The notes below the pieces were generated by a model, which was given only the letters and a program-made list of their open reading frames with translations, made no database searches and was not told the DNA's origin. Shown here in pieces: positions 47,709-55,760 of a stretch of 64,000 nt of DNA; the first letter of the stretch is position 1; each line of letters begins with the position of its first letter. Position numbers and translations under genes: made by a program. The stretch lies in contig NZ_JADEXR010000007.1 in assembly GCF_015206995.1 (NCBI RefSeq), positions 1 to 64,000 of the forward strand, given 5' to 3'. Source of the stretch: an aff. Roholtiella sp. LEGE 12411 (lineage in GTDB: Bacteria; Cyanobacteriota; Cyanobacteriia; Cyanobacteriales; Nostocaceae).

Positions 47709-47941
47709 GGCTAAGAGTTCTCAAATTATGAGTTATGAGTTTTGTAACTCTTGACTCATCGGGGCATGGTTTGTCCATGTCCCAATTAACTCTTAAATGA
47801 TGATTCTGAGTAAAACCCCGCTGTATCATAAAACTGCTCAAACAGTATATTTATAATTTTGTCTGTTCTATTTACAACTTGTTAATAGTAGAATCCCATC
47901 ACAATTTGCTCAGGTTTTTACCCTAGAACAGCCAAACTTAA

Positions 47942-47969
47942 TTTTTGTGAGAATGTCCCACGAATCCTA
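47942..47969 (+). repeat. leader hairpin repeat, copy 2
   Basis: Matches 24 of 28 positions of the leader at 5963-5990 (ending GAATCCTA). Here it is followed only by a 3-codon frame, so it is an orphan copy of the leader. Confidence 0.4.
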
Positions 47970-48107
47970 GCATGAAAATTTAATCTTTTAAATAATTTAG
48001 CGGCAGCAAATTAAATTTTCTAAGATCTCCCAATTTGAATTCGTTAACTTACCTAATAACCTAGTATCAGGTTTAGCGCCAGTTGTAATGTATTGTGCTC
48101 AGTACTA

Positions 48108-48263
48108 AGAGGATGTTTGAAAAGTCCTCTTATCGGTAGCAAAAAGTTCTAGGTTCCCCTTAAAAAAGGGGACTTTGATTCCCTCTAACACCTTTTTCAG
48201 AGGGGTTAGAGGGAATCAATAAGTGCCTAAAATCACAACCAACAACTTTTCAAACAACTTCTA
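48108..48263. mobile_element. MITE-like element, TIR AGAGGATGTTT, copy 1
   Basis: Left end AGAGGATGTTTGAAAAGTCC (48108-48127); right end CAACTTTTCAAACAACTTCT, an imperfect inverted match. The interior holds a 15-bp perfect hairpin, TTGATTCCCTCTAAC / GTTAGAGGGAATCAA, and a small CCCC/GGGG stem. It shares its end type with 60440-60584. Confidence 0.55.
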
Positions 48264-49167
48264 AGGACAAGAAGCTTGAGGTGATGTTAGCCAGAACATT
48301 GGTAGGCTAGCTCAAACAGCTTAGATGATTAATTCATGACATAGCTAATTTTTTACCTTTGTAGGAAATTAACTATGTAATTGCTGAGCTAACAGTCTTC
48401 AAAAACAATGAATTTCTTATAATTGAGCGCCAACCTCAATCAGACAATCCCAAAAACCTAGTTTTGCAGAAATCTGCTCAATGCAAACACCTGTAAAAAT
48501 TTAGATCAAAAATTTGGATAAACAGGGTTTTATCAATCAGAAATTTACATTAGATTTTTTCAAAATTTATACAAAATTCCTAGTTAAAAATTTTAACAAG
48601 GATGTTGGGATCAATAATGTATTTGCATTTATGCTCTTGATAATTATCAAGGTACTGATAATTAATTACGACAGCTATTCTCATACATTGCTTATATGGC
48701 AATCTGGAATAGAAATTTTTAATCTATAGCCCGAAAACTAGATAGAGCGACTGCTTTGGTTAATCACTAAAATACACTACTGTCGACTATGGCTTAATAC
48801 CTAGCTATTTACTTTATTTGTCAACGTGGGAAATACTAAGTTTAGATTAAAAATTTATTACTTTTAATTAACATTGTTTATAGTCACGATAAGTTTATAT
48901 ATTGACTATCTTAATTCTTAATTAAAGTTCATTGATGCTCTGCTACTTATAAACTAAATGAATACCAATATTGTCTGCCTTTTGATGATGGGGTAATCTA
49001 GCAAAAGTTAATAGCACAGTTGTGCTTGGGTTATGTTTTGGTGACAGGGTTGGCATTAGTTGCTCTGGCGATGCAGAGTCACAGAGCAATAGAAGCTATG
49101 ATTGAGGCTGTAGGGTTGACTTAGGAGCGTGTTCTTTGGATAAGTAGGTAAATAAGTATTAGCACCT

Positions 49168-49183
49168 GCTGGTATCTACCAGC
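49168..49183. promoter_or_regulatory. perfect palindrome upstream of PP2C gene
   Basis: GCTGGTA-TC-TACCAGC is a perfect inverted repeat with a 2-bp centre, about 110 bp upstream of the PP2C start. The tight spacing suits a dimeric regulator site rather than an RNA hairpin. No factor is known to me. Confidence 0.3.
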
Positions 49184-49295
49184 TAAAATCATCATCCAAA
49201 GTTTGGATATGTCAAATTCAAGAAACATGAGCGGTCTAGGTTGCCGCTGCCAATGCTGTTGAAGTAATTGCCAAGCGCTGATCGGTGCGACAACT

Positions 49296-51572
49296 ATGGA
49301 AAATGAAGCGGCAACGCTCTACTGCCCAAATGAAAACTGTCAGGCTCTCAACCCCCTGACTCACAAGTTTTGCCAGCGATGCTCCACACCCTTACCCAAA
49401 ATTTATCTCTGGGCTGTGGTAGATGGATTGAGTGTGGGTAGTCCTGGAGAAATATTAGCCGATCGCTATTTAGTTATCAATCAATCTGTGGTTTTAGATA
49501 CAAAACCAGGTTTATTACCTCAAACGCCTGAGTTAGATGATGTACAGGTAATCAAAGCTTATTTGAGGCTAATTCCTTACCGTTTAAATGTACCGCAGGT
49601 ATATGGAGTGCTACCCCTAACTGACGGGCACTCCCATCAAGAAATCTTACTTTTAGAAAAACCGCCACTGCTTGTAGATGACACAGACCAACAAATTTAT
49701 CTGTGCAGCGAGTTCACCACAGCTTGGCGTGATGCGACATCGATGCGTCAACTCAACTGGTTGTGGCAGTTAGCTCATCTGTGGGAGCCTCTTTTAAGCG
49801 AAGGCGTCGCCTCTAGCTTGCTCGATACTTATTTATTGCGGGTAGAAGGGCCGTTAGTGCGCTTGTTAGAATTGCGTTTTGACCCCGAAACAGCACCAGA
49901 ATTGCCCCAATTAGGTGAATTCTGGCAGCAACTGCTGAGCGAAACCAAACCAGTCATAGCTGAATTTGTCAGCGTTATTAGCCATTCTTTGATTCAAAGA
50001 GAGATCAACTCACCTGAGCAATTAATCGCAGTTTTAGATCGCGGACTAGCAGAATTAGGGCGATCGCAAACACCCACAATCACAATTACCACAAAAACTG
50101 ACACTGGGCCCAGCCGCCAACGCAACGAAGATGCCTGTTACCCTCCCAGCGGTACACTTTTGAGCAAACCACCACAACCGACAGCCTTAACAATTGTCTG
50201 TGATGGCATTGGAGGACATGAAGGAGGCAATCTTGCATCCAATTTAGCAATTGAAACAATCCAGCAGCAGGTACAGCAACTAACAAAAGTTCCCTACGAT
50301 CACATAGACCCTCCAATGCTGCTGGCTGACTTAGAATTGGCCGTAGCAGTTGCCAATGACAAAATTAGTCAGCGCAACGATGGGGAAAATCGCCAAGGGC
50401 GTCAACGCATGGGCACAACCTTAGTGATGGCATTACCCGTTGCTCATGAAATGTACATTACTCACGTTGGCGATAGTCGTGCATACTGGATTACACGCCA
50501 CGGCTGTTACCAAGTTACTCTTGATGATGATGTGGCTTCCCGCGAGGTACGGTTAGGCTATGCAGTCTACCGCGAGGCCGTGCAACAAAGTGCTTCTGGC
50601 TCTCTGGTGCAAGCTTTGGGGATGAGTCCCAGCACTTCATTACATCCCACTTCCCAACGGTTTATCCTCGATGAAGATACAGTTTTTCTGCTCACATCCG
50701 ATGGTTTGAGTGATTTTGATCGCGTGGAAGAGTCCTGGGAAACAGAAATTTTGCCGATTCTGGCTGGCGAAGCTAATTTAGCAACTGTTGCAGACAGATT
50801 AGTAGAAATTGCCAATACTAAGAATGGACACGATAATGTCACCATCGCTTTAGTACATTATCAAGTCCAATACTGGGAACCAGAAATTACTGTAAAAGCA
50901 GTTATTCCAGACAGTAACTCGATCCAAACTGCTGATGCGCCCAGAGGAACAGGTGGAACACTCTTAGGTAACTCCAATCAGAAAACTCAGGTAATTCCAG
51001 AAAGCAAGCCAGCCAAAACTCCCCAATTACCGCTACAGTTCCTAGTCCCGTTAATATTGGTTGTCGCTGCTGGTTCTCTGGGATACTTTGTAATGAAACT
51101 GCGATCGCCATCTGGATCAATTCCATTTTTGTCTAGTCCAAAAACTCAAAAACCAACTGACGAAGCAACACCTGAAGAACAGCGATCGCTCGCTAATCTC
51201 GCAGCCGGGTGGGTGATGCAAACTAAGCGTGAAATCCCCTTGAGAAACAACCAATCTCTTCCCCCAGGTACTTTTTTAGAAGTTCTTGATACAATACCAA
51301 GTCCCAAAACTACTTCTGGGGGTTTTGAAGTGCAACTGCGCCTCTGCTCAAATAAAAACACGTCAACTCCAGCAAATGCAAATAAGCCACCAATATCTTC
51401 CCCTGCGGCTCCAAATTCAACTCCTTTGCCGCAAGAGAAAACAGTATTAATTGATTTCTCTCAACTGAAGCGTTTTGGAGTATCTGTTTTGCAATCAGAC
51501 ACACCGAGTCCATGTAATACTGTCACGCAACCGCCAGTGAGTAATTCAACTGAATCAGTCCAACTGAATTAA
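49296..51572 (+). CDS. zinc-ribbon PP2C-type Ser/Thr protein phosphatase, membrane-anchored
   Basis: A 758-residue protein phosphatase. An N-terminal zinc ribbon has Cys10, Cys15, Cys26 and Cys29 (CPNENCQALN, FCQRCSTPLP). A region of about 230 residues without a named domain follows (kinase-like remnant or ligand domain). The PP2C core at about 261-520 has SRQRNEDAC, IVCDGIGGHEGGNLAS, THVGDSRAYWI, LTSDGLSDFD and GHDNVTIAL, so the metal-binding Asp residues are present. A single membrane segment at about 577-598 (LQFLVPLILVVAAGSLGYF) precedes an SH3-like or periplasmic tail with Pro/Ser linkers. It heads a cluster with a CHAT-FHA gene; their FHA domains may read phosphothreonines that this enzyme removes. 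Confidence 0.88.
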   Translation: MENEAATLYCPNENCQALNPLTHKFCQRCSTPLPKIYLWAVVDGLSVGSPGEILADRYLVINQSVVLDTKPGLLPQTPELDDVQVIKAYLRLIPYRLNVPQVYGVLPLTDGHSHQEILLLEKPPLLVDDTDQQIYLCSEFTTAWRDATSMRQLNWLWQLAHLWEPLLSEGVASSLLDTYLLRVEGPLVRLLELRFDPETAPELPQLGEFWQQLLSETKPVIAEFVSVISHSLIQREINSPEQLIAVLDRGLAELGRSQTPTITITTKTDTGPSRQRNEDACYPPSGTLLSKPPQPTALTIVCDGIGGHEGGNLASNLAIETIQQQVQQLTKVPYDHIDPPMLLADLELAVAVANDKISQRNDGENRQGRQRMGTTLVMALPVAHEMYITHVGDSRAYWITRHGCYQVTLDDDVASREVRLGYAVYREAVQQSASGSLVQALGMSPSTSLHPTSQRFILDEDTVFLLTSDGLSDFDRVEESWETEILPILAGEANLATVADRLVEIANTKNGHDNVTIALVHYQVQYWEPEITVKAVIPDSNSIQTADAPRGTGGTLLGNSNQKTQVIPESKPAKTPQLPLQFLVPLILVVAAGSLGYFVMKLRSPSGSIPFLSSPKTQKPTDEATPEEQRSLANLAAGWVMQTKREIPLRNNQSLPPGTFLEVLDTIPSPKTTSGGFEVQLRLCSNKNTSTPANANKPPISSPAAPNSTPLPQEKTVLIDFSQLKRFGVSVLQSDTPSPCNTVTQPPVSNSTESVQLN

Positions 51573-51705
51573 ATACTCGATAAACTGGTAAAAACCTGAA
51601 ATAATACAGGTAACAACTAAAATGAAAAATTTACAAGGTGAAGTTTTAACCTTGAAAAATTGTTATTTGAAATTATTTGTTTTTAGCTTTTAGTTTAATG
51701 AATCC

Positions 51706-53286
51706 ATGCCATCCCTGAATCTGGCGATCGCCCGTCTCCTAAACACTGGCACTGATAACTTCGCCATTTGGGTGGTCAAAGCTCCCTATCCCAGTGGCTA
51801 TGTTCTACGTGACTGTGTATGGCCTGTTGAACTAACTCAAGTCTGGCAAGAATGGCAGCAAATGTTTGCTGGTCATAGTCGCTTAGATATTTCCCCTTCA
51901 ACATCTGGGCGGGTAAACCCATTCCCCATTAACTTAATTTCACCCCCTTCATCTCAGACCACTGGGCCTTACAGTAGTCGTCTGATGCAATACTTGGGAA
52001 TAAGTTTATGGCGCTGGGTATTCGACGGATCAATTCTCGGCAGTCTGGAACGTAGTCGCGGCATTGCTATGGGTCAGCATACACAATTACGTTTTCGACT
52101 GGAAATTCGTGACCCGGATCTGATCGCTTTGCCTTGGGAAATTATGCAGCGTGAGCCTGGTCAATCTGCTATGTCCTTCTCCCAAGATTTACTATTTAGT
52201 CGCACCAGCAGTGAAGTTGACCCGTTACCATATTTGCGGACTGACCAGGCTTTAAGTATCCTGCTCGTTTTGGGTAATGATGATAACCTGCAACTAGAAC
52301 AAGAAGCCGCTATTTTACAGCAAACTCTTGCAGAAGCCGCGACCGTGGCCAGCAATTCCCAGAGATATGCACCCTGCATTGTAAATACACTTCTGCAACC
52401 AACCCCACACGAGTTGATTCAAGAGCTAGAAACTAAAGCATATAACGTCTTGTTTTATGCTGGACATGGTTTGCCTGGCCCAGACGGAGGGTTACTGTTT
52501 TTACGCTCAGAGATGACCCTTAATGGTATAGAATTAGCGCAAGTATTGACGCGTACGGGTGTGAAATTAGCGGTGTTCAACGCTTGTTGGGGAGCACAAC
52601 CCGCTGCCATCAATCACCAGGCTGTACCTGCTAGCAGTTTAGCCGAAGTATTAATTCGTCATGGTGTGCCCGCCGTTTTAGGGATGCGCGATAAAATTGC
52701 TGACCATGAAAGCCACAGTTTTATTCAAGCCTTTACCGAAGCTTTGCGATCGCGCAAGCCAATTGATGAAGCTGTAGCAATGGCTAGGCAAGAATTATTA
52801 ACCCTGTATAAATTTAATCAACCAGCTTGGACTTTGCCCGTTCTCTACCTGCATCCAGATTTTAATGGCGAACTGATCAAGAGTTTTGATGAAGGGATTA
52901 CGGAATTACCAGACACTGCTATCCCTGAGATCGGTTCCCCGCTTCCCACTGCTTGTTTGCGATCGCTTTCTCCAGGCGGTGCAACCTGGTCGTTGCGTTC
53001 TGGAGTAACTCGCATCGGTCGCACGAGAGATAATGATATCGTCATCCCAGAACCGTCGGTTTCTAAACGCCACGCTGAAATTTTATGCCGTAATACTCTC
53101 ACCGATGCTACACTTGTGCGAACTTATTACTTACAAGATTTATCCACCTACGGCACAACCTGGTTTTTAGCTCCTAATGGTTGGCAACAAATCCTCCGGG
53201 AGGAAGTCCCATTAAAATCGGGAACGCAGTTAAAGTTTGGTAGTGCGAGAGGCGAAACCTGGGAGTTTATTATTGAAGATTCTTAA
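51706..53286 (+). CDS. CHAT protease-like protein with C-terminal FHA domain
   Basis: A 526-residue protein. The CHAT (caspase-like) domain at about 170-395 has the predicted catalytic dyad His254 in FYAGHGLPGPDGG and Cys294 in VFNACWGAQPA. The FHA domain at about 415-522 has TRIGRTRDNDIVIPEPSVSK (Arg439, then Ser451 and His456 in SVSKRHAEI) and QDLSTYGTTW, so the phosphothreonine-binding residues are in place. It starts at ATG after an AT-rich spacer of 133 bp and is probably cotranscribed with the phosphatase. CHAT domains act as separase/caspase-like proteases or as scaffolds in bacterial conflict systems. Here its target is unknown. Confidence 0.9.
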   Translation: MPSLNLAIARLLNTGTDNFAIWVVKAPYPSGYVLRDCVWPVELTQVWQEWQQMFAGHSRLDISPSTSGRVNPFPINLISPPSSQTTGPYSSRLMQYLGISLWRWVFDGSILGSLERSRGIAMGQHTQLRFRLEIRDPDLIALPWEIMQREPGQSAMSFSQDLLFSRTSSEVDPLPYLRTDQALSILLVLGNDDNLQLEQEAAILQQTLAEAATVASNSQRYAPCIVNTLLQPTPHELIQELETKAYNVLFYAGHGLPGPDGGLLFLRSEMTLNGIELAQVLTRTGVKLAVFNACWGAQPAAINHQAVPASSLAEVLIRHGVPAVLGMRDKIADHESHSFIQAFTEALRSRKPIDEAVAMARQELLTLYKFNQPAWTLPVLYLHPDFNGELIKSFDEGITELPDTAIPEIGSPLPTACLRSLSPGGATWSLRSGVTRIGRTRDNDIVIPEPSVSKRHAEILCRNTLTDATLVRTYYLQDLSTYGTTWFLAPNGWQQILREEVPLKSGTQLKFGSARGETWEFIIEDS

Positions 53287-53426
53287 CTGAAGGTATTGCA
53301 GGAATTAAGATTTGAGCCATTAACATCAGTCTTTAAAACCTGCGTTTACTCTAGGGAAAAACAACTTTTTTTTGCGGAAATCTGATTCTTGCAGTTGTAG
53401 CTGTCAATACCGCTAATTAATCAATC

Positions 53427-54086
53427 GTGAGGCAAAAAATGAATAACAAAATCAATAGTTCCAACACTCCCGACTCTTTGCCATCTCAAGTAGATTTAGA
53501 GTTTCTAGAAGCGTTATTAGAACCAGAAGATGCTACTTACCCCTGGAATCCGGCTGATGAGGAGTCAGAAGCTTATTTTCACGAACTAGAACAGCAGTTC
53601 GTGACGCCAGATTGGCTGGAAGATGAACTGACGACAAGATCAGAAGGTTTTTACAGCAATCTAGACACACTTTGGTCTGGGATTTCAAATAATATATATT
53701 ACAAACGTAATACAGAGCAAGTGCTTGATATTAATCTTCAAGAAACTTTACATAATACTTTTGCTGGCTGTGTTCCGCAAGTTTGGCTCAACGCGATCGC
53801 CAAGAAAGCTACTGAGATATTTGCATCTCACCAATCAGTAGGCGAGCAGTTGATTACGTGTGTTCAGAGCGTACTACCAGCTTGGGGAGCAGATGATCTT
53901 TTGGTCTTAGCTCGTCCTTTTGCCTATTCCATGCGAAGTAGCGAACCGCAAGATGCAGCATCGGTAATTAGTAATCTTGACAATCGTGAGTGGACAACAT
54001 TGTCAGAAATAGAACAAGCAAAAATCAGCTTAGCGATCGCTTATTATGCTTTAAACCAACTAAATAGCTTTCAGTCTAAGCCATAA
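53427..54086 (+). CDS. unknown helical protein downstream of CHAT-FHA (219 aa)
   Basis: Starts at GTG (MRQKMNNKINSS) or at ATG 12 nt later. The N-terminal third is acidic (DLEFLEALLEPEDATYPWNP, EESEAYFHELEQQF). The rest is helical, with VPQVWLNAIAKKATEIFASH and a last LNQLNSFQSKP. No membrane segment and no known motif. It lies 140 bp after CHAT-FHA on the same strand, so it is a candidate substrate, inhibitor or adaptor of that protein. I cannot name a family. Confidence 0.7.
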   Translation: MRQKMNNKINSSNTPDSLPSQVDLEFLEALLEPEDATYPWNPADEESEAYFHELEQQFVTPDWLEDELTTRSEGFYSNLDTLWSGISNNIYYKRNTEQVLDINLQETLHNTFAGCVPQVWLNAIAKKATEIFASHQSVGEQLITCVQSVLPAWGADDLLVLARPFAYSMRSSEPQDAASVISNLDNREWTTLSEIEQAKISLAIAYYALNQLNSFQSKP

Positions 54087-54380
54087 CTTCAGTCTGCCAT
54101 CTATTCCTTTGTTACCACTTTATTTTGATTAAATTCGATGGGCAAGTATGTATGATGTCTGTAAGTGGAGTGGTGCTTGTATTGAAAGCATTGCAACTCT
54201 CTTATGATCAGTCTTAAGACATATTAATCCCAAGGTAATTTCACAATAAGTTAATTGCAACAATAGCACTATCTATCCCAAGACATAAATAGTCAGTCAA
54301 GAGTCAAGAGTCAAGAGTCAAAAGTCACTATTTATTGCCTCCTGCTCCCCTGCACAAGTGCTCCCTCATTTTCCCCTCTC
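54087..54380. other. spacer between convergent unknown gene and FHA-PrsW gene
   Basis: 294 bp with a tandem of the heptamer GAGTCAA near 54297-54325 (three units) and low-complexity pyrimidines. It may contain terminators for both genes, though no clear stem was seen. Confidence 0.4.
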
Positions 54381-55760
54381 TTACTTCGGCCCGAGAAAGC
54401 GAGTAGCGAAGTTTTGCGATCGCGTTGGTGACAGTGCCCGTGCTTTGAGAATTGCCGCCATCAAAAAGGCATAAGACAACACCCCAACAACTACTAACAG
54501 CAAAGCGTTGATAGATCCTGTAGCATTCCATAAAGCATGGAGTGCAGCGGCGCTCAGATAACCAACTAAGAGAATTTGCCAACTCCTACTAGGCTTGAGA
54601 ACAGCCAAACCAATAAAATAGCCCAGATACCCACTGTAAGCCATGTGTCCGGCTACAGAGCCTAAAATTCGGGGAATTAGTAGTTGTAAACCCACCAATT
54701 GACCAGTCCCTATGTCTACCTGTTGGGTAACATTTTGAGTGATATCTGGTACGTATTGTCCGAGAGTTTCTAATAAAGTAAAACCCACAGCAGAGGCTGT
54801 TCCCAGAAGAATGCCATCTAGAGGTTCCCAAACACCTATACGTTCCCGCCAAGGTGAGGATAATATTCTACCCAGGAAGAACGCCCCTAGTACAGGTAAT
54901 GCCTTGAGTAATTCCTCCATCAATCCAGCGCCAAAAAACATTCGCACCAGCAACTCTGTAAAGGTTGTGGAGTCTTGAGGCGAAGACAAGTTACCAGGTA
55001 AGATGCCGCGAAACACAAAGATAAAGAAACTCAACACAGGACTGAGCAAAATTAGCGTTGTGCTCAATGCTGTTGCCATTAGCACCCACCAAGGCTTCTG
55101 TTTACCGCAAAGTTGGTAAACAAAATAGTAGGCAGCAGAAGCTATGTAAGTTGCTACGATCACTTGATTAGCTTGAGGCTGACCTACCGTAGCAAACATC
55201 AATACCACGAATATTACAGTCAGTATTCCTGGTATGAGGTAAGCTTTGCGAGTTAAATCTTTGCCAGTGGAAATAATTGGAAACAGTTGAGTAAAGCTAA
55301 CTGAATCTGGCTGCTTTAATTGTGTGTGGTTGTGGTAATTCGTCGCCGAAGGCAATGGTGTAACTTGGTTCGCCGACATCACCGTTCCTTGGGAAATAGA
55401 ATCATACTCAAAAACGAATTGTGGCCCATCAGTACCCAGAGAAATGCGATCGCCAGAGTGCAATTCCTGACACCCGTACAAGCGTTGTCCATTTAAATAA
55501 GTGCCATTAGCACTATTCAAATCACAAACCAACCAGCTGAATTTGCTATCTGGTGATGAAGAGAGGGGACGAACCACTGCATGACGACGAGATACCATCC
55601 GGTGCATCATGGCATCCAAGACAACTTGGCAGCTAGGGTCACGTCCAATTACCATCTCTTTACTGGGAGGGAGCGAGTAGCGAGATTCTGATCCAGAAGC
55701 TGCTCCATTACCAGACACTAGCCGCAGAAATGCATTTTGTCTTGCGTTTTTGCCTGTCAT
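54381..55760 (-). CDS. FHA domain fused to PrsW-type intramembrane protease
   Basis: A 459-residue protein. The N-terminal FHA domain at about 26-118 has VIGRDPSCQVVL, MVSRRHAVVRPL and LNSANGTYLNGQRL, with the phosphopeptide-binding Arg, Ser and His in place. A linker of about 40 residues leads to a membrane domain with about eight segments. The PrsW motif MEELLKALPVLGAF (Glu282-Glu283) is followed by His372 (GSVAGHMAYSG) and His408 (AAALHALWNA), the metal-ligand pattern of PrsW/CAAX-like proteases. It is convergent with the CHAT-FHA cluster. Prediction: cuts membrane proteins, with the FHA domain recruiting phosphorylated partners. Confidence 0.88.
   Translation of the reverse strand: MTGKNARQNAFLRLVSGNGAASGSESRYSLPPSKEMVIGRDPSCQVVLDAMMHRMVSRRHAVVRPLSSSPDSKFSWLVCDLNSANGTYLNGQRLYGCQELHSGDRISLGTDGPQFVFEYDSISQGTVMSANQVTPLPSATNYHNHTQLKQPDSVSFTQLFPIISTGKDLTRKAYLIPGILTVIFVVLMFATVGQPQANQVIVATYIASAAYYFVYQLCGKQKPWWVLMATALSTTLILLSPVLSFFIFVFRGILPGNLSSPQDSTTFTELLVRMFFGAGLMEELLKALPVLGAFFLGRILSSPWRERIGVWEPLDGILLGTASAVGFTLLETLGQYVPDITQNVTQQVDIGTGQLVGLQLLIPRILGSVAGHMAYSGYLGYFIGLAVLKPSRSWQILLVGYLSAAALHALWNATGSINALLLVVVGVLSYAFLMAAILKARALSPTRSQNFATRFLGPK

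Follow-up and report, generated by a model that had tools for sequence, protein, structure and literature searches.

Sequence comparison points to a second HetF-like/PatU-like pair in a conserved cyanobacterial gene cluster

The CHAT-domain protein HetF (alr3546) of Anabaena sp. PCC 7120, which acts in cell division and in heterocysts, has been described as carrying a membrane segment and tetratricopeptide repeats (TPRs; PMC8406250). HetF is reported to be able to cleave PatU3, and the HetF-PatU3 pair to tie proteolysis to cell division and to the formation of heterocysts (PMC12288457); patU itself is described as the gene directly behind hetZ (PMC7377430). Here we analyse four open reading frames (ORFs) at positions 49296-55760 of a 64,000-nucleotide window, i.e., the whole stretch of DNA that was studied (positions 1 to 64,000 of contig NZ_JADEXR010000007.1, assembly GCF_015206995.1), from aff. 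Roholtiella sp. LEGE 12411, whose genome comprises 6.58 Mb in 338 contigs. The four genes encode a PP2C-type phosphatase, a CHAT-FHA protein, a PatU-like protein and, on the opposite strand, an FHA-PrsW protease. Since the third protein appears related to PatU, CHAT-FHA groups with HetF, and HetF can reportedly cleave PatU3, the second and third genes may form a second HetF-like/PatU-like pair. We see an even chance that the whole locus is a module of this type equipped with phosphate-sensing parts, in which the PatU-like protein would be the likely client, the FHA domain would recruit the protease at phosphothreonine, and the phosphatase would serve as anchor and reset enzyme. The two core genes and their parts are:

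51706-53286, plus strand: CHAT-FHA protein, 526 amino acids, a predicted HetF-related caspase-like protease with a C-terminal FHA domain (Pfam, NCBIfam, tree)
52111-52812, plus strand: CHAT protease domain (His254 codon 52465-52467, Cys294 codon 52585-52587)
53008-53241, plus strand: FHA domain of the CHAT protein (Pfam, conserved binding residues)
53427-54086, plus strand: small PatU-like protein, approximately 215 amino acids, net charge -19 (profile comparison with PatU)
53538-53546, plus strand: YPW within the motif YPWNP, which corresponds to FPWET of PatU (motif count)
53766-54074, plus strand: helical core common to PatU, residues 114-216 (hhalign, AlphaFold2 model)

Pfam recognises both domains of CHAT-FHA, with 79.5 bits for CHAT (PF12770, E 3.9e-22, cut-off 24) and 54.1 bits for FHA (PF00498, E 2.1e-14, cut-off 20.7). 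The protease residues H254 and C294 and the FHA residues R439, S453 and H456 are invariant in all 75 CHAT-FHA sequences aligned (the window's and 74 from 77 fetched loci; L092, L105 and L110, which are split or cut, were excluded). The HetF model NF045509 matches residues 96-394 (E 9.5e-48) with 163 bits against a cut-off of 1200, and the HetF of the window's genome is a separate gene scoring 1493 bits. A tree of 51 CHAT domains, of which the bootstrap had not settled, places CHAT-FHA and HetF together, on a branch with 98/99 support, apart from 11 of 12 other CHATs included from the genome, and the 19 CHAT-FHA rows form one group (99/97); the tree was built from these 19 of the 75 rows, 20 HetF rows and the 12 other CHATs, leaving out L353 (short) and L349 (broken). 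One very divergent CHAT of the same genome (L354, G000:C113:39486-40166) falls beside CHAT-FHA on a long branch, and its placement is unsure. The catalytic dyad is present in HetF as well (His in 19 and Cys in 20 of 20 sequences), 59 positions are conserved at 90% in both proteins, and, like CHAT-FHA, HetF has a PatU-family partner in most of its genomes. Judged by its sequence, then, CHAT-FHA is a paralogue of HetF on the same CHAT branch, differing in that an FHA domain stands where HetF has its membrane segment and TPRs. SAVED-CHAT and TPR-CHAT (Craspase) have only the CHAT domain in common with it, although no search aimed at CRISPR or RNA-guided partners was made. We rejected a defence-system reading: the PADLOC models gave only SAVED_CHAT for the CHAT protein, at E 0.054, and nothing for the other three proteins. 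An Anabaena CHAT gene, all2170, which may or may not correspond to CHAT-FHA, has been implicated in the hetF-like phenotype of a strain that carries two mutations (PMC10811720).

The third ORF encodes 219 amino acids from a GTG at 53427; we favour the ATG at 53439 as the probable start because the profile match begins there. The initial annotation had set this gene down as unrecognised, acidic and helical. The last two properties stand (charge -19; an all-helical AlphaFold2 model with a mean predicted local distance difference test score of 80, higher in the core), but the protein can be recognised as a probable PatU-family member. No confident Pfam or NCBIfam match was obtained; a PDS5 identity, at 19 bits against a cut-off of 27, was not used. 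Foldseek returned 157 PDB matches for the model at E <= 10 and none at E <= 0.001, so we give the protein no fold name. When a profile of 52 orthologues was run against 13 genomes, a second match followed the gene itself in 10 of them, and eight of these were PatU-type genes with open frames of 273-391 amino acids (the second match in G001 and G121 was something else; G003, G120 and G122 had none). At the one such locus tested (L161), HetZ precedes the PatU-type gene (NF037963, 623 bits versus a cut-off of 550), and a HetZ match adjoins PatU in 62 of 63 locus rows, in which some genomes occur twice.

Direct comparison of the PatU-like and PatU profiles with hhalign (87 and 60 sequences; L194 was excluded from the PatU set as the same gene as L159) gave P 5e-8, a probability of 94.8% and a score of 61.4. 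As controls, 200 shuffles reached at most 23.7, the reversed profile 23.8, and none of the profiles of PP2C, CHAT and PrsW scored above 19.1. A shallower pair of alignments (52 and 35 sequences) gave P 5.5e-5, with none of 200 column shuffles scoring as high. Outside the aligned core, an [FY]PW motif is found in 75 of 87 PatU-like and 60 of 60 PatU sequences, compared to a mean of 1.4 in 87 shuffled PatU-like sequences. By these comparisons the third protein is a distant relative of PatU, sharing the helical core and the [FY]PW motif with PatU/PatU3; it is shorter, lacking the final approximately 90 residues of PatU, and its gene does not lie behind hetZ. Nor is it the PatU orthologue, since the PatU of the window's genome is another gene (L167, G000:C78:54509-55495) with HetZ ahead of it. 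Two patU frames elsewhere (L170 in G035, and one on G124:C24) contain internal stops, recalling the patU5/patU3 split reported for Anabaena 7120 (PMC7377430).

We read a sample of 120 genomes of the order, representing 33 families. CHAT-FHA (E < 1e-80) was present in 80, the PatU-like gene (E <= 1e-3) in 88, FHA-PrsW (E <= 1e-40) in 71 and PatU (E <= 1e-5) in 70, while hits of the CHAT-FHA query to HetF at E <= 1e-30, which give a lower bound, put HetF in at least 63. We fetched 77 CHAT-FHA loci (excluding that of the window's genome) and three loci without CHAT-FHA from family f18, and read them with phmmer; CHAT-FHA of G044 and G112, both with a stop inside the match, is not among them. CHAT-FHA and the PatU-like gene lie on the same strand within 1 kb of each other at 48 of the 77 loci, in 16 families; PP2C and CHAT-FHA do so in 36 genomes (12 families), and the PatU-like gene and PrsW are on opposite strands (convergent where listed) within 1.5 kb in 35 genomes (13 families). 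All four genes are together at 15 of 77 loci, in 8 families. Among the best 80 of 364 relatives in named records, which are closely related and nearly all Nostocales, 72 keep all four genes with order and orientation unchanged, and the CHAT-PatU-like pair is present in all 80; contig ends truncate some of the 8 exceptions. Across the phylum, 68 of 292 genomes have CHAT-FHA (E <= 1e-60), and 8 of these belong to other orders of the class. The initial annotation had staked its grouping on conservation in other genomes; as the arrangement is conserved in several families, and the genes co-occur, we rejected accidental grouping.

The presence of the genes follows the proposed pairing. The PatU-like gene is found in 78 of the 80 genomes with CHAT-FHA (of the other two, one is 61% complete and one has a broken CHAT frame) and in 10 of the 40 without; PatU is found in 61 of the 63 genomes with HetF and in 9 of the 57 without. 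The corresponding phi values are 0.77 for CHAT-FHA/PatU-like and 0.82 for HetF/PatU, versus 0.69 and 0.52 for the crossed combinations CHAT-FHA/PatU and HetF/PatU-like. CHAT-FHA thus seems to need the PatU-like gene, not the reverse. In 21 of its 88 genomes the PatU-like gene occurs without a PatU match. The nine genomes with PatU and no HetF at E <= 1e-30 comprise five of family f33, three of f32 (fragments only) and one of f5; two genomes (G026, G058), conversely, have HetF but no match to PatU. In these two and in the five f33 genomes, the unmatched partner might be replaced by CHAT-FHA or the PatU-like protein.

The first gene of the cluster and its parts are:

49296-51572, plus strand: PP2C-type Ser/Thr phosphatase, 758 amino acids (ORF, Pfam, structure comparison)
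49323-49382, plus strand: four-Cys zinc ribbon (Cys10/15/26/29), resembling the four-Cys prefix of cyanobacterial Ser/Thr kinases
50079-50870, plus strand: PP2C catalytic domain (Pfam, structure, motifs)
50982-50996, plus strand: KTQVI, conserved KTxx[IL]-type motif of the linker (Thr564), ahead of the membrane helix; candidate site for phosphothreonine docking (or for cleavage)
51033-51101, plus strand: predicted membrane helix, residues 580-602 (model of modest confidence, hydrophobic sequence)

This protein consists of the zinc ribbon, a conserved region (approximately residues 36-260), the PP2C domain, a disordered linker, the predicted helix and a small C-terminal beta part. PP2C_2 (PF13672) matches at E 9.5e-10 (38.8 bits, cut-off 24), and the best structural matches are PP2C domains, with Z 27 across residues 262-522. 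For alignment we used 40 cluster orthologues, i.e., 37 beside CHAT-FHA (including the window's) and 3 from f18 beside the PatU-like gene and PrsW only. All 40 retain D279, D303, D469 and D513 of the metal-site motifs and the four ribbon cysteines, in line with the zinc-ribbon PP2C of the initial annotation; the membrane anchor claimed along with it amounts to a predicted helix. The kinase-prefix model NF045510 matches the ribbon in 17 of the 40 at E <= 0.01 (best 1.6e-6; the window's copy has 13.5 bits, below the cut-off of 24). A PRK14559-type model, NF011149, matches all 40 at E <= 0.01, and the PP2C domain has all its motifs. The window's copy, however, scores 245 bits against a cut-off of 374, with no coverage past residue 525, beyond which the cluster PP2Cs add the motif-bearing linker, the membrane helix and a C-terminal part with a cysteine pair. 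PrpJ1 and PrpJ2 of Anabaena are presumably similar to these PP2Cs.

The linker is poorly conserved, and its top columns are Thr564 (80%) and Lys563 (70%), followed by Leu/Ile567, Thr555 and Ser560 at 53%. FHA domains read phosphothreonine and often select the residue at position +3. The pattern [KRP]Txx[ILVM] occurs in 35 of the 40 cluster PP2Cs, compared to a mean of 10.8 and a maximum of 19 in 1000 rounds of shuffling. With a second linker definition it is found in 33 of 40 cluster PP2Cs (two of which yielded no linker yet count in the denominator), in 2 of 10 unlinked orthologues, whose genomes have CHAT-FHA elsewhere, and in 2 of 20 PP2Cs from genomes without CHAT-FHA; the KT form is found in 28 of 40, 1 of 10 and 0 of 20, respectively. 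Descent may explain part of this contrast, since the pattern was selected using the cluster PP2Cs themselves, the 10 and 20 genomes for comparison were hand-picked rather than random, and the groups come from different families. Five second-paralogue PP2Cs out of seven, along with the three PrsW-only PP2Cs, lacked a linker anchor and were left out. The motif is the sole new support for phosphothreonine steering of the proteases and for its reversal by this phosphatase, and it is suggestive only. By eye, four unlinked PP2Cs (L395, L399, L401, L404) have PT[QK][LIV] just ahead of the membrane helix, not KTxx[IL].

Two other parts of the phosphatase deserve mention. Residues 36-260 (49401-50075) are well conserved, with an RQLNWLWQIAxLW block and mostly high model confidence, and match no family. 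The region looks faintly kinase-like to the eye, and profiles give this no support: hhalign against 30 kinases of the genome gave P 0.045 and a score of 19.8, while shuffles reach 25.1, and phmmer with residues 1-260 found a single PDB sequence, at E 2.2. We make no such claim. Fold searches with Foldseek and VIA-align exclude nothing here, as all 50 rows shown fall on the PP2C domain. Behind the helix, residues 604-758 (51105-51569) contain exactly two cysteines in 34 of the 40 orthologues and none in 6; possibly, this part is a small sensor domain outside the cytoplasm in which the pair forms a disulfide.

The fourth gene is convergent to the other three:

54381-55760, minus strand: FHA-PrsW, with an N-terminal FHA domain and a glutamic-type intramembrane protease
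55434-55652, minus strand: FHA domain of the PrsW protein (Pfam, conserved residues)
54450-55097, minus strand: PrsW protease domain, with Glu282-Glu283, Glu331, His372 and His408 (Pfam, conserved residues)

As in other PrsW glutamic intramembrane proteases, the protease domain is clearly recognised (PF13367, E 3.1e-39, 135 bits versus 23.5) and the active-site residues are conserved (E282, E283 and E331 in 31 of 31 sequences, H372 and H408 in 30 of 31). It differs from them in its added N-terminal FHA domain (PF00498, E 2.2e-18, 66.9 bits versus 20.7; R40, S57 and H60 in 31 of 31) and in missing the PrsW equivalog NF033739 (18.7 bits versus 225). All four genes of the initial annotation have been borne out in position and strand by the ORF listing, and the CHAT, PrsW and FHA residues it called intact have turned out invariant or nearly so across orthologues.

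A kinase is not a conserved part of the cluster, and we dropped it as a candidate member: a kinase profile at E <= 1e-5 hits 4 of 180 loci, with a kinase directly adjacent at 1 of the 77 CHAT-FHA loci, and 1 of the 80 named-record loci. The 40 kinase matches of the window's genome all lie on contigs other than the window's, in agreement with the initial annotation, which saw no kinase in the window; a kinase for the cluster would act from elsewhere in the genome. By eye, several of 30 kinases read in the genome are preceded by a four-Cys ribbon similar to the one in the PP2C. Given this, and the 17 PP2Cs matched by the kinase-prefix model, a kinase bearing such a ribbon would be a plausible, though unproven, partner. 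In G052 (L069:5755-9117), a gene for a Ser/Thr kinase lies immediately next to CHAT-FHA in convergent orientation.

The initial annotation had read the cluster as phosphothreonine steering of two proteases. The grouping and the conserved FHA and active sites hold; what it missed is the kinship to PatU and HetF, owing to which the core is most likely a protease and its client rather than two parallel proteases. We propose that CHAT-FHA would be a cysteine protease of the HetF branch, with the FHA domain in place of HetF's membrane and TPR part, and that its client would most likely be the adjacent PatU-like protein, as PatU3 is for HetF. The FHA domain would recruit or activate the protease at phosphothreonine sites, for which the best candidate is the KTxx[IL]-type linker motif of the presumably membrane-anchored PP2C; with this motif as the dock, PP2C would be both anchor and reset enzyme. 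FHA-PrsW, as a membrane protease, may read marks of this kind too. A more specific version, a parallel or older phosphothreonine-gated switch of the HetF-PatU3 type, in which a kinase marks the PP2C motif, both FHA proteins dock there, CHAT-FHA destroys the PatU-like protein as an inhibitor and PP2C erases the mark, is in our view doubtful, if conceivable.

Several observations weigh against the proposal. The homology of the third protein to PatU rests on the PatU-like profile search, both hhalign comparisons and the [FY]PW motif, and the reverse search counts against it: in all 13 genomes searched, the PatU profile brought up PatU itself but, at E <= 5, not the PatU-like gene. No column of the PatU-like alignment has Thr in more than 27 of 87 sequences, for which reason the protein is not an obvious FHA ligand and we do not favour it as one (Ser193 is present in 86 of 87). 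The unlinked PP2C orthologues mostly lack the linker motif, and both the co-occurrence and the motif counts ignore phylogeny. In addition, the PatU-like gene occurs in 10 genomes without CHAT-FHA, and four f5 genomes (G034, G057, G076, G093) hold PP2C-CHAT and PatU-like-PrsW at separate places. From these 10 genomes and the PrsW-side placement in f5 it follows that CHAT-FHA cannot be the only partner of the PatU-like protein.

The split in f5 would also be expected if the locus consisted of two side-by-side pairs, PP2C/CHAT-FHA and PatU-like/FHA-PrsW, so that the intramembrane protease, and not CHAT-FHA, controls the PatU-like protein. Five f18 genomes without a CHAT-FHA match (L113, L114, L115, L233, L234) still have PP2C, the PatU-like gene and PrsW adjacent, which again speaks for such pairs (G045, also f18, retains CHAT-FHA), as do the convergent PatU-like-PrsW pairs of 13 families. 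However, CHAT-FHA is without the PatU-like gene in just 2 of 80 genomes, while the PatU-like gene is without PrsW in 24 of 88, and a soluble helical protein would not be an obvious intramembrane substrate; we regard the two-pair arrangement as unlikely. The PatU-like protein might instead bind CHAT-FHA without being cut, as an adaptor or inhibitor, or partner a HetZ-like regulator. PatU3, although a HetF substrate, is reported to bind HetZ and ZipS as well (PMC12288457, PMC7377430), and the 10 genomes having the PatU-like gene without CHAT-FHA would fit such a role. The nearest precedent in this branch of proteases is nonetheless the reported cleavage of a PatU partner (PMC12288457), and binding without cleavage seems to us improbable.

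The linker motif itself could be a cleavage site, with CHAT-FHA cutting the PP2C linker and releasing the phosphatase from the membrane. Many bacterial caspase-like enzymes prefer basic P1 residues, and Lys563 is 70% conserved, in a motif just ahead of the membrane helix. But Thr564 is the better conserved of the two, and the +3 residue is mostly hydrophobic, as is typical of known FHA ligands, which makes this a distinctly unlikely role. Finally, the neighbourhood might be conserved without any joint function, given that its members separate in many lineages and that the tight four-gene cluster is confined to 15 of the 77 fetched loci. We judge this very unlikely: the arrangement is found again in 8 families, co-occurrence tracks the pairing, and the product of the third gene is related to the client of HetF, the paralogue of the second.

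In the titles and abstract openings of the papers listed by searches of the open-licence PMC literature we found no description of a CHAT-FHA protein, of the four-gene cluster or of a PatU paralogue beside a HetF paralogue, though one may exist elsewhere, and the term FHA is absent from the main text of a survey of cyanobacterial orthocaspases (PMC8283722). An unnamed conserved gene here becomes a likely protease client. Our proposal of a paralogous HetF-like/PatU-like pair with FHA domains, a PP2C and a candidate phospho-site offers a concrete and testable input, namely threonine phosphorylation, and the cluster could tie part of the large cyanobacterial Ser/Thr kinase set (the 40 matches in this genome, alongside 13 FHA matches, 2 of them in the cluster, and 16 CHAT matches) to regulated proteolysis. 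It suggests a phosphorylation-controlled cousin of the switch governing cell division and heterocyst formation. If this is true, heterocyst control could derive from one copy of a general division/differentiation switch, since CHAT-FHA and the PatU-like gene (80 and 88) are at least as frequent in the 120 genomes as HetF and PatU (at least 63, and 70).

As for the surroundings of the cluster, a Pfam scan placed ndhM upstream and a nitrate-reductase-associated gene downstream; a further ORF on the downstream side resembles nitrate reductase. Between ndhM and the PP2C gene (47709-49295) lie approximately 1.6 kb without an ORF of at least 80 amino acids, part of which appears AT-rich to the eye. 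A promoter and terminator scan gave 13 promoter-like sites (12.4 expected) and 9 terminator-like sites (6.5 expected), and is uninformative on co-transcription. The relatives with CHAT-FHA identities to the window of up to 96% are Nostoc spp., and the window's genome is close to Nostoc.

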